Positions 4,854 to 26,868 of a stretch of DNA of 53,607 bases are shown here, piece by piece. Source of the stretch: Candidatus Daviesbacteria bacterium RIFCSPHIGHO2_12_FULL_37_16 (GTDB taxonomy: Bacteria > Patescibacteriota > Microgenomatia > Daviesbacterales > UBA10151); NCBI GenBank assembly GCA_001776785.1, contig MFDF01000016.1, forward strand, positions 1-53,607, written 5' to 3'. Each line of letters opens with the position of its first letter. Positions within the stretch are counted from its first letter, which is position 1. The position numbers were made by a program, and so were the translations under genes. The notes below the pieces were generated by a model, which was not told the DNA's origin, searched no databases, and saw nothing but the letters and a program-made list of their open reading frames with translations.

Positions 4854-4859
4854 AAGGTG

Positions 4860-4916
4860 TGACCCCAGCTGGATATATCACAATTTTTTAAATTGCTGAA
4901 CCAGCGACAAATTGAT
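4860..4916 (-). pseudogene. tRNA-Lys 3'-half remnant
   Basis: Read on the minus strand this matches the 3' half of the intact tRNA-Lys at 5034-5105: positions 4898-4916 match the anticodon-stem to T-stem part with one mismatch, and 4860-4873 match the T-stem/acceptor end exactly. A 24-nt segment (4874-4897) containing the palindrome CAATTT-TTT-AAATTG replaces part of the T loop. The 5' half is absent; in its place lies the hairpin element at 4917-4955. Confidence 0.7.
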
Positions 4917-4955
4917 AACACACCCAATCCGCCAGTTGGCGGATTGCAAGAGTCT
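4917..4955 (-). repeat. Hairpin repeat element, family A, copy 1
   Basis: Minus-strand pattern AGACTCTTGCAAT-[stem-loop]-ATTGGGTGTGTT. The stem AATCCGCC/GGCGGATT encloses a 4-nt loop. Copies at 4997-5032 and 18386-18417 share both flanks but have different stem sequences, so the stem varies with base pairing maintained. It abuts a tRNA 3'-half on its downstream side. Confidence 0.75.
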
Positions 4956-4960
4956 CTATG

Positions 4961-4996
4961 TGAGGGCGCAGGGATTCGAACCCTGGACCGAATGAT
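4961..4996 (-). pseudogene. Second tRNA 3'-half remnant
   Basis: On the minus strand this reads as an anticodon-stem 3' strand, variable region, complete T arm (CAGGG-TTCGAAT-CCCTG) and a 3' acceptor strand ending CGCCCTC plus A. No matching 5' acceptor or D arm is nearby. It differs from tRNA-Lys, so it comes from another tRNA whose identity cannot be read without the anticodon. It joins the element at 4997-5032 at the same anticodon-loop position as the Lys remnant. Confidence 0.65.
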
Positions 4997-5032
4997 AATA
5001 CACCCAATTTGCTACGCAAATTGCAAGAGTCT
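4997..5032 (-). repeat. Hairpin repeat element, family A, copy 2
   Basis: Same flanks as copy 1 (AGACTCTTGCAAT ... ATTGGGTGTATT on the minus strand) around the stem AATTTGC/GCAAATT with a 3-nt loop. It begins one base after the 3' end of the intact tRNA-Lys and ends at the 38/39 region of the tRNA remnant. Confidence 0.75.
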
Positions 5033-5033
5033 G

Positions 5034-5105
5034 TGACCCCAGCTGGATTCGAACCAGCGACCAATTGATTAAGAGTCAACTGCTCTACCGCTGAGCTATG
5101 GGGCC
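5034..5105 (-). tRNA. tRNA-Lys (CUU)
   Basis: Complete cloverleaf on the minus strand. The acceptor GGCCCCA pairs with TGGGGTC (one G-U), discriminator A; D arm GCTC/GAGC; anticodon stem GTTGA/TCAAT (one G-U) with loop CTCTTAA, anticodon CTT; T arm GCTGG-TTCGAAT-CCAGC. CCA is not encoded. Broken copies of its 3' half lie immediately downstream. Confidence 0.95.
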
Positions 5106-16163: not shown

Positions 16164-16679
16164 TTAGGATAAGAGAGAACTAAAGAGGTCTTTTATTTCT
16201 GAAATTTCATTTTTAACAAATTCTATAAAATTAAATCTTAAATCCACTTCAGCAGAAGGATTAGAGGTTGGAGAGGGATTAGAAGATGGACTTGCACTAG
16301 CAGTTGGGGAGGGTGAAACGTTCACCTCAACTTTTTGACCATTAACATTGACATCTACTGAAGTGTTGACTGTTGAGCTTTTTTGTTGGACCACATTTGA
16401 ACTTGAAGTATCAGAGGAGACATCAACTTTTGAATTTCCATCAGAGGATTCAAGATGAACACTTCCTCCTTCTTCTGAGTGATATTCTTTCCTTTCCCCA
16501 TTTGTTTCTATGACAACATCTGTTTTAGATTTTGAGGTGTTAGACTGGTTTGAATTAATATTTACACTATTTTTTGATCCATCAAGGTTGTTTGAGATTT
16601 CAACTGAAATTTTTGCAGAAGCTAAAGAGGGAAAGGCTAAAAGAACTAAGCTTAAAAAAATCAGGGCAGATTTTTTCAT
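16164..16679 (-). CDS. Secreted Ser/Asn-rich protein
   Basis: 171 residues with a clear signal peptide (KKSALIFLSLVLLAFPSLASA, cut near residue 22). A Ser/Asn/Val-rich polar body and a Pro-Ser linker (SPSPTASASPSSNPSPTS) follow, and a C-terminal amphipathic segment ends the protein. Possibly surface-attached; no enzyme motif. TATAAT lies 10 nt before the ATG on the minus strand. Confidence 0.7.
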   Translation of the reverse strand: MKKSALIFLSLVLLAFPSLASAKISVEISNNLDGSKNSVNINSNQSNTSKSKTDVVIETNGERKEYHSEEGGSVHLESSDGNSKVDVSSDTSSSNVVQQKSSTVNTSVDVNVNGQKVEVNVSPSPTASASPSSNPSPTSNPSAEVDLRFNFIEFVKNEISEIKDLFSSLLS

Positions 16680-16788
16680 AGGGCTTACTATTATAACCTA
16701 TTGGTCAAGGGAAGTTAGTAGTAAAACAGTAAGAAGATTTGTCTTTAGTAGAGAAAAAAGCTCATTCTTGGTAAAATATGGGTTATAC

Positions 16789-16854
16789 GGTGGTCGTAGC
16801 CCTGCCTGCCGGCAGGTTAACCTGCTGCAAGCATGGCAGGTCAATGGCAGAGCA
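16789..16854 (+). pseudogene. Interrupted 5' fragment of tRNA-His
   Basis: Positions 16789-16800 and 16841-16854 together reproduce the first 26 nt of the intact tRNA-His at 17117 (5' acceptor strand and D arm) without mismatch. They are split by a 40-nt palindromic insert (16801-16840). Similarity ends abruptly 5 nt before the GIY-YIG start codon. Confidence 0.75.
16801..16840 (+). repeat. CCTGCC-type palindromic element, family B
   Basis: Contains CCTGCCGGCAGG and a second AACCTGCTGC...GGCAGG half, inserted within the D-stem entry of the tRNA-His fragment. Related palindromes occur at 21410-21430 and, degenerate, near 39390-39420, all intergenic. Confidence 0.65.
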
Positions 16855-16859
16855 CTCTG

Positions 16860-17105
16860 ATGTATTACGTTTATATCCTCAAGAGTCAAAAGGATAATAA
16901 TTTTTATACTGGAATTACTAATAATATTGAAATCCGCTTAAGACAACATAATATTGGGTATTCTTCCACAAGGTCAACTAAGAATAGAGGTCCATTTATA
17001 TTAGTATTTGCTCAAGAGTGTTCTGACAGAAATGAGGCACATGCTTTAGAAAAGTACCTCAAATCAGGTGAAGGTAGAGAATTAAGAGATAAACTGTTAA
17101 AATAG
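16860..17105 (+). CDS. Small GIY-YIG nuclease-domain protein
   Basis: 81 residues from ATG 16860 (the frame continues upstream through the tRNA fragment, which is not coding). It is a single GIY-YIG domain of the YhbQ/UvrC-N type: YYVYILKSQ (YVY replaces GIY), FYTGITNNIEIRLRQHN (YTG for YIG, catalytic R in IEIRLRQH), and a late ALEKYLKSGEG with the conserved Glu. Such mini-nucleases are abundant in CPR genomes with unknown targets. It is flanked by a tRNA-His 5' fragment and, 11 nt downstream, the complete tRNA-His. Confidence 0.9.
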   Translation: MYYVYILKSQKDNNFYTGITNNIEIRLRQHNIGYSSTRSTKNRGPFILVFAQECSDRNEAHALEKYLKSGEGRELRDKLLK

Positions 17106-17116
17106 GCATTGTTTAT

Positions 17117-17189
17117 GGTGGTCGTAGCTCAATGGCAGAGCATCAGATTGTGGATCTGACGGTTGCGGGTTCAACTCCCGTCGATCACC
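17117..17189 (+). tRNA. tRNA-His (GUG)
   Basis: Includes the extra G-1 typical of tRNA-His, acceptor GTGGTCG/CGATCAC with C73, D arm GCTC/GAGC, anticodon stem TCAGA/TCTGA with loop TTGTGGA (anticodon GTG), and T arm GCGGG-TTCAACT-CCCGT. CCA follows directly (17190-17192), unlike the other tRNAs here. No promoter is obvious in the 11 nt after the GIY-YIG gene, so transcription may start upstream of the 5' fragment. Confidence 0.95.
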
Positions 17190-17280
17190 CCAAGAGGTGT
17201 AAGCTATTTTCTTATAAAAGATCACCTGTGATTGTAATCTACTGTATTAATAAGTATTGTTAATTTAGTATAGATATACT

Positions 17281-18258
17281 ATGAATATTAAAGTTAGCTG
17301 TTTTTGGGGCATGCTCTTCTTCCTTATTATTTTCTTCTCTGTTCTATCATCCCCTGTATTTGCTGCTAAATCCTCCTCTAGTCTGGGGTCAACGCTTGCA
17401 CAAAAAAGGATCAAAATTGGTGCAAAACTGAGAGAATATAAACCACCAACCAAAGCTGATTGTGATATTCGGGTCCCTAAGCAATATCCCACAATCCAAG
17501 CAGGTATAGATGCTGCACTAACTGGGAATACTATATGTGTTGATAAAGGAACTTATAACGAAGACATAGTTATTAACAAATCCATTCGGCTTTCTGGAAA
17601 AGGAACTCTTAAAACCATAATTAATGGTCAAAACCCAGACGCATCTGGTACAGTGTATATTACGGCCAAAAATGTCATTGTAGAAGGGTTTTCCATCAAT
17701 GGGGTTGGAAATAACCGTGGTACTGCTGCAGTACGCCAATTTGAACAAGTTTACGACACTATAATCCGATACAACCGAATTGTGGCTGGAAACGGACAAT
17801 TGGCCTTCCTGACAGATAATGCCCAAAATAATAACCTTGTTGCAAACAACATATTAGTAGGTAATAACTCCCCAGATATAGCCAAAGTTAATGCGTTTGA
17901 TAGCAATAAACCTACAGATAAAGTTGATTTTCTAAACAATACATTTATAGGAACAGTAAGCCCGACTGATTGGCAAACCGAAGCATTCGTATTAGATGCT
18001 GGTGCTCCAAACAGCTTGATTCAACAAAATGTTTTTAATGCGACAGGTACAATGGTAGCAGTGATTGCTTCTAATAACAGCAGTAGCATCCACGAAAATA
18101 ATTTCAATGGTGGAACTACCATAAAAGTTGCTGGTGGATGGGGACCTTCTGATCTGAATGCTGAAAATAACTGGTGGGGAGATTCAGCCCCATCAGATAA
18201 TGTCCAAGGAGCTATTGATTTCACTCCATTTGCAACAAGTCCATTTACAGAAAATTAG
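17281..18258 (+). CDS. Secreted parallel beta-helix protein
   Basis: 325 residues. Signal peptide with a long hydrophobic core (FWGMLFFLIIFFSVL) cut after PVFAA near residue 29. From about 65 on it shows right-handed beta-helix rungs (YPTIQAGIDAALTGNTICV, NVIVEGFSI, NNLVANNILVGNN, SIHENNFNG) ending in ENNWWGDSAPSDN, as in pectate-lyase-like/NosD repeats. Probably surface glycan-binding or lyase-like; no catalytic residues are identified. Codon use is richer in C-ending codons than the neighbours, a possible sign of transfer. Confidence 0.82.
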   Translation: MNIKVSCFWGMLFFLIIFFSVLSSPVFAAKSSSSLGSTLAQKRIKIGAKLREYKPPTKADCDIRVPKQYPTIQAGIDAALTGNTICVDKGTYNEDIVINKSIRLSGKGTLKTIINGQNPDASGTVYITAKNVIVEGFSINGVGNNRGTAAVRQFEQVYDTIIRYNRIVAGNGQLAFLTDNAQNNNLVANNILVGNNSPDIAKVNAFDSNKPTDKVDFLNNTFIGTVSPTDWQTEAFVLDAGAPNSLIQQNVFNATGTMVAVIASNNSSSIHENNFNGGTTIKVAGGWGPSDLNAENNWWGDSAPSDNVQGAIDFTPFATSPFTEN

Positions 18259-26619: not shown

Positions 26620-26693
26620 GCCCCCATAGCTCAGTGGATTAGAGCGGGACGGTTCTAACGTCAAGGTCGGGGGTTCGAATCCCTCTGGGGGTG
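26620..26693 (+). tRNA. tRNA-Arg (UCU)
   Basis: Acceptor GCCCCCA/TGGGGGT (terminal G-U), discriminator G; D arm GCTC/GAGC; anticodon stem GGACG/CGTCA with one G-A mismatch, loop GTTCTAA (anticodon TCT); T arm CGGGG-GTTCGAA-type with CCCTC. TATAAT at 26601-26606 is the likely -10 box. CCA is not encoded. Partial copies of its 3' end follow about 100 nt downstream. Confidence 0.92.
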
Positions 26694-26696
26694 CAA

Positions 26697-26796: not shown

Positions 26797-26827
26797 ATCC
26801 CTCTGGGGGTGCTCACTCTGGGGGTAC
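26797..26827 (+). repeat. Two partial copies of the tRNA-Arg 3' end
   Basis: ATCCCTCTGGGGGTGC (26797-26812) repeats the T-stem 3' strand plus acceptor of tRNA-Arg(UCU) exactly. A second, degenerate copy (CTCTGGGGGTAC) follows directly. Such 3'-end duplications are typical of integration at a tRNA gene; the element itself is no longer here. Confidence 0.65.
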
Positions 26828-26868
26828 AAATTTGACAAGAGTTATATCTATTTGTTAATGTATTTTTG

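Follow-up and report, generated by a model that had tools for sequence, protein, structure and literature searches.

A GIY-YIG mini-nuclease gene between a hairpin-tagged partial tRNA-His and a complete one: a candidate mobile gene that spares its target

GIY-YIG domains occur in nucleases of different kinds, and here we compare these with a locus on contig MFDF01000016.1 of Candidatus Daviesbacteria bacterium RIFCSPHIGHO2_12_FULL_37_16 (53,607 nucleotides (nt), referred to as the window), where a GIY-YIG mini-nuclease gene lies between a partial and a complete tRNA-His. SLX1 cuts branched DNA, on which it partners SLX4, and I-TevI has an intron and, apart from its catalytic domain, a distinct domain that binds DNA. 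To our knowledge, UPF0213 is represented by structures only, with no established function. Short dispersed palindromes that also lie within genes are known as Rickettsia palindromic elements, and repetitive extragenic palindromic (REP) sequences are likewise short palindromes scattered in genomes (this second group: see PMC3733652 below).

The nearest precedent, likened by description rather than by sequence, appears to be SegB of T-even phages, a free-standing GIY-YIG homing endonuclease that cuts inside tRNA genes (PMC13096335, citing Brok-Volchanskaya 2008). According to the accessible text of that source, SegB drives the inheritance and amplification of tRNA regions, and its homologues were surveyed in phage and archaeal-virus genomes (PMC13096335). 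As far as that text describes SegB, the genes studied here resemble it in being of GIY-YIG type, free-standing and adjacent to tRNA genes of many isotypes, and a hairpin-tagged partial tRNA copy is not among the features it lists (PMC13096335). In contrast to SegB, the present genes are single-domain genes of about 80 amino acids (aa) on bacterial chromosomes, inserted at tRNA units with target duplication and a hairpin. Furthermore, rRNA insertion sequences of the candidate phyla radiation (CPR) hold intron-free GIY-YIG open reading frames (ORFs) that stand outside homing (PMC11270868). These come from the same host group and are likewise insertions in RNA genes, and that paper never mentions tRNA; one relative of the window gene (L124) does lie inside a 16S rRNA gene. 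The window palindrome belongs, as described below, to a family that resembles REP sequences (PMC3733652) and the Rickettsia elements in being short, scattered and also present within genes, but unlike these it recurs inside partial tRNA copies adjoining GIY-YIG genes. Our literature search returned no chromosomal tRNA-inserted GIY-YIG mini-gene with a hairpin-tagged duplication; as subscription papers and preprints were thinly covered, novelty is unproven. The recurrent locus type looks like a widespread, apparently undescribed mobile gene that spares the tRNA it invades.

The tRNA-His locus and its nuclease

The locus comprises the following features:

About 16772 to 16777, forward strand: TAAAAT, located before the remnant; probably the original -10 promoter element of tRNA-His
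16789 to 16800, forward strand: first block of the tRNA-His 5' copy (nt 1-12 counting G-1), GGTGGTCGTAGC, identical to 17117-17128
16801 to 16840, forward strand: palindromic insert of 40 nt inside the tRNA copy, CCTGCCTGCCGGCAGGTTAACCTGCTGCAAGCATGGCAGG, with the core CCTGCCTGCCGGCAGG; clean, with no bases duplicated
16841 to 16854, forward strand: second block of the tRNA-His 5' copy (nt 13-26), TCAATGGCAGAGCA, identical to 17129-17142
16860 to 17105, forward strand: GIY-YIG mini-nuclease gene (PF01541), 81 aa, ATG at 16860, stop ending at 17105
17117 to 17192, forward strand: complete tRNA-His, anticodon GTG (ARAGORN 17118-17192; Rfam RF00005, 67 bits)

Joined, the two blocks equal the first 26 nt of tRNA-His, and this two-block match is not due to chance, since shuffling the upstream region 2000 times gave matches of at most 11 nt. 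The original prediction for this DNA had described a 26-nt repeat of the tRNA 5' end located 5 nt before the nuclease gene, its disruption by a 40-nt palindrome, and a complete tRNA-His beginning 11 nt after the gene, all of which was borne out. The TAAAAT upstream of the remnant is probably the original -10 element because a similar TAAAAT precedes tRNA-His by a few nt in nuclease-free relatives; a second such motif, TTAAAAT at 17098-17104, falls on the nuclease gene's 3' end. The ORF is encoded outside introns and inteins, and the adjoining tRNA-His is complete. When 16600-17300 was scanned with Rfam at E ≤ 1, only tRNA and no intron family was matched, and a group I intron with a homing endonuclease was rejected on this basis. 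Phage cargo was rejected as well, as the GIY-YIG proteins returned by a phage search, from 13 records, were all distant.

The encoded protein is a member of the GIY-YIG superfamily and a predicted nuclease, matching PF01541 with an E value of 5.8e-18 and 65.4 bits (curated cut-off 22.6). It contains the catalytic residues Y5, Y16, G18, R26, and E64, of which Y5, Y16, and E64 are invariant across 40 sequences, while G18 and R26 are conserved in at least 90%. The AlphaFold2 model (predicted local distance difference test score 91) has UPF0213 BH0048, SLX1, and the I-TevI catalytic domain as its closest solved folds, with which the window protein has both fold and catalytic residues in common. 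Because SLX1 acts on branched DNA, a structure-selective activity on cruciforms of tRNA genes or palindromes is plausible by analogy.

Recurrence, target duplication, and empty sites

Relatives of the window protein were sought by protein similarity alone in 380 genomes of the phylum, from which 109 loci were read besides the window, and a second set of 80 relatives was taken from assembled genome contigs, bringing the sampled loci to 189. The two sets may share a few loci, as indicated by identical rows in the protein tree, and the second set includes contigs of metagenome-assembled genomes labelled Bacteroidetes, Planctomycetota, Omnitrophota, Alphaproteobacteria, and others, for which binning errors are possible. 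A same-strand tRNA or transfer-messenger RNA (tmRNA) gene within 150 nt was found for 63 of the 109 phylum relatives, and an antisense one for none; at these 63 loci, the RNA gene was located downstream in 45 and upstream in 24 cases, some loci having both. The same applies to 47 of the 80 genome-contig relatives (one antisense), and 110 of the 189 pooled loci adjoin a tRNA, all but one in sense. Among control ORFs of at least 100 aa from the same loci, 12 of 230 did so (p ~1e-26). About 20 isotypes are represented, and 20 of the 75 ORFs with a downstream tRNA end inside that tRNA, 10 of these on U8-A9-G10.

An upstream copy of at least 11 nt of the 5' end of the locus's own tRNA was found at 36 of the 75 loci with a downstream tRNA, but in 0 of 750 mispaired combinations; with insertions allowed, 39 of 75 loci exceeded the 99% null. 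Clean insertions of GC-rich hairpins, which duplicate no target bases, were identified in copies of His, Leu, Lys, Met, Ser, Cys, Gln, and Tyr tRNAs. They measure exactly 20 nt in L056 (His), L131 (Ser), L228 (Met), L237 (Leu), L249 (Cys), L251 (Lys), and L258 (Leu), 30 nt in L093 (Cys) and L095 (Ser), and 40 nt in the window, with further lengths elsewhere; a hairpin stands in place of the anticodon arm in L057, L068, L072, and L129. Upstream of the gene, a hairpin with z > 2 relative to shuffles was present in 64% of relatives and 19% of control ORFs. A mirror form, in which the complete tRNA lies upstream and the hairpin-tagged copy downstream, was found as well (L061 and L065; L058, likewise of this form, is truncated where its contig stops). 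The palindrome that splits the window copy is not incidental, given how many of these loci have a GC-rich hairpin within the duplicated copy. Moreover, copies at several loci reach into the native leader (by about 13 nt in L222, 10 in L228, 9 in L227, and 19 in L108), with a leader identity of 50-77% at positions -1 to -5. As leaders are local, the copies derive from the target on site instead of having been carried in by the element.

Three empty sites were identified. The tRNA-Ala of G144 is filled with a nuclease gene and a 25-nt remnant with a hairpin, while its congener G102 has a tRNA-Ala between the same left and right genes and lacks both nuclease and remnant; an apparent older remnant with a palindrome at the G144 site suggests that it was probably hit twice. 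The tRNA-Lys of G144 is flanked by three copies tagged with hairpins and by two genes for the nuclease, compared to a single tRNA-Lys in G102 that has the same downstream flank and neither nuclease nor tagged copies. For tRNA-Asp, filled G197 and empty G219 have conserved flanks, G219 being without nuclease and without remnant. In addition, at the 11 nuclease-free tRNA-His genes of the window's own family, 5' copies did not exceed 5 nt. Recurrence, target duplications, and the three empty sites thus support the earlier proposal that a nuclease gene entered a tRNA gene and that the tRNA was restored downstream.

Closely related nucleases were found at different isotypes. One protein clade with 99% support spans L185 (His), L206 (Lys), L244 (Asn), L173 (Met), L208 (Pro), and L186 (Thr). 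Among similar nucleases at different isotypes, hairpin similarity was 0.40 versus 0.31 after permutation (3/5000; both strands), and, without this restriction, the similarity of hairpins correlated weakly with that of the proteins (r 0.05); with moderate confidence, the hairpin appears to follow the nuclease clade. L056, which is most closely related to the window gene, adjoins tRNA-His as well, with a palindrome at the same place, and has nothing in common with the window beyond the nuclease and the palindrome-tagged tRNA-His, flanking synteny being absent.

The 16-nt core CCTGCCTGCCGGCAGG is present about 8-9 times in this genome (at most 1 mismatch), several times within apparent genes, e.g., uvrC, and the window palindrome therefore belongs to a dispersed family. 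In tagged copies, the hairpin is often the same 20-mer, CCTGCCTGCCGGCAGGCAGG, which was found in perfect form in 85 of the 380 phylum genomes, its reversed control in none. A nuclease relative was detected in 71 of the 85 genomes with the 20-mer versus 115 of the 295 without it, an odds ratio of 7.9 that ignores phylogeny.

Proposed mechanism and alternative explanations

In our view, these loci probably represent a family of mobile GIY-YIG genes that insert into tRNA genes, duplicating the target and leaving a hairpin-tagged remnant. The comparisons establish the architecture and how it recurs, the duplication of the target, the empty sites, and the range of isotypes. We infer the nuclease to be the cutter and driver, and likewise the order of events: the single-domain enzyme, with its SLX1/I-TevI fold, would cut or nick the tRNA gene where the D or anticodon arms form, and repair that copies the nuclease gene in would leave the local target duplicated on both sides of this gene of about 240 base pairs (bp). 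The duplicated target often comprises part of the leader together with the initial ~12-58 nt of the tRNA; in the mirror form it is the tRNA 3' part or the whole tRNA. Owing to duplication on both sides, one complete tRNA is kept, while the other copy, usually partial, carries a GC-rich palindrome in, or replacing, the D or anticodon arm. This hairpin may mark the spent copy, perhaps by destroying the cut site or by stabilizing the mRNA 5' end.

Several points weigh against this interpretation. The window genus is represented by one genome, and the empty sites come from tRNA-Ala, tRNA-Lys, and tRNA-Asp of relatives; approximately 40% of relatives do not adjoin a tRNA; the protein trees were built on 85 columns and are poorly resolved; and transposition and cleavage are deduced from sequence comparisons. 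The promoter signal that precedes remnants is only weakly stronger than the one preceding the complete tRNA (p 0.05), and 5' copies of at least 14 nt were found in 2 of 36 distant tRNAs versus 28 of 119 adjacent ones. Furthermore, partial copies without a nuclease gene exist at two tRNAs of the window:

5033 to 5105, minus strand: tRNA-Lys, with an ORF-less hairpin-tagged 3' copy
26620 to 26694: tRNA-Arg(TCT), with partial 3' copies

The duplications could therefore have another maker, with the nuclease riding along; these copies may be either non-autonomous forms moved in trans or independent duplications exploited by the nuclease. The expectation that the 5' fragment should be missing where the nuclease is missing held at the 11 tRNA-His genes and the three empty sites; these two tRNAs add the correction that partial tRNA copies also occur where there is no nuclease gene. 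Relatives at other loci, which were named as a second possible refutation of the original prediction, do occur, but are mostly beside other tRNAs and often have a duplication of their own. Its broader suggestion that stand-alone CPR GIY-YIG proteins can behave as tRNA-targeting mobile genes is supported by the tRNA-adjoining loci and their duplications, with the nuclease as the presumed cause of the movement and with about 40% of relatives located elsewhere.

The nuclease-free copies would also be expected if dispersed GC-rich palindromes inserted into tRNA genes and drove their duplication, e.g., through template switching at hairpins, and small genes were trapped between the copies, the nuclease being a passenger. 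The 14 of 85 genomes that have the 20-mer without a detected nuclease relative fit this idea, which we nevertheless consider improbable; against it stand the GIY-YIG relatives adjoining tRNAs at 110 of the 189 loci, all but one in sense, and the far higher frequency, phylogeny ignored, at which palindrome-positive genomes carry a relative. The near-universal sense orientation, the tight spacing, and the ORFs that end on tRNA bases would suit a resident, non-mobile nuclease co-transcribed with tRNAs, with the partial tRNA and hairpin serving as an mRNA leader that regulates or stabilizes. Three empty sites in congeners, closely related proteins at many isotypes, and the missing flanking synteny between L056 and the window make this very unlikely, and a regulatory role could be compatible with mobility. 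Least credible is the decay of a tRNA-targeting integrase-type island to a single gene. A partial direct repeat of the tRNA on one side, with the intact tRNA on the opposite side, would resemble such an island, but the insert of about 330 bp contains no integrase gene, the GIY-YIG ORF being the sole gene between the repeats, and the copies include local leader and hairpins and use both 5' and 3' sides; this candidate was thus rejected.

Within the favored explanation, that of a mobile gene that duplicates its tRNA target, the family may be placed as a variant of free-standing GIY-YIG homing-type genes, with a substantial chance that it forms its own class. More tentatively, and with slightly less than even confidence, we propose a minimal element class consisting of a structure-selective nuclease gene of ~80 aa plus a clade-specific palindrome. 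Such elements would invade genes for structured RNAs, namely rRNA, tmRNA, RNase P RNA, and tRNAs of almost every isotype, duplicating the target so that a working RNA gene survives and tagging the spent copy with the palindrome, and the scattered palindromes would be non-autonomous offshoots. If mobility is confirmed, stand-alone GIY-YIG genes of Patescibacteria, which are common there and usually annotated by domain only, would gain a concrete role, and there would be an explanation for the GC-rich palindromes and the broken tRNA copies that such genomes contain. It would also provide a very small natural system with empty and filled pairs, in which a nuclease gene moves while sparing an essential target.

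Other loci and palindromes

Besides L124 in its 16S rRNA gene, relatives L101 and L172 lie next to RNase P RNA genes, on their 5' side. In 20 loci lacking a nearby same-strand tRNA, Rfam revealed no shared RNA target. A second group of mini GIY-YIG genes (L161, L164, L181, L188, L242, and others) lies between the inverted repeats CCCGTTAGAGA and TCTCTAACGGG, the 3' repeat ending at an ATG, possibly the start of the next gene; these repeats flank the gene at many loci without an adjoining tRNA. In yet other relatives (L063, L074-L076, L086, L088, L099, L106, and L116), long palindromes (CACTTCTTCGCT... and GCGAAGAAGTG) are found just 3' of a tRNA or tmRNA and are followed by the nuclease gene.

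The core CCTGCCTGCCGGCAGG was observed within apparent coding sequence at L008/L003 (G000:C2:104082), L005, L007, L013, L014, and L016. Downstream of the window tRNA-Lys (4855-5032, minus strand), there are two tandem ORF-less units of the form AGACTCTTGCAAT-hairpin-ATTGGGTGTRTTATCA, together with a T-arm piece of a foreign tRNA and a copied 3' half of tRNA-Lys whose T-loop contains a hairpin. The two partial copies of the tRNA-Arg(TCT) 3' end are located at 26797-26828, approximately 100 nt downstream of tRNA-Arg.
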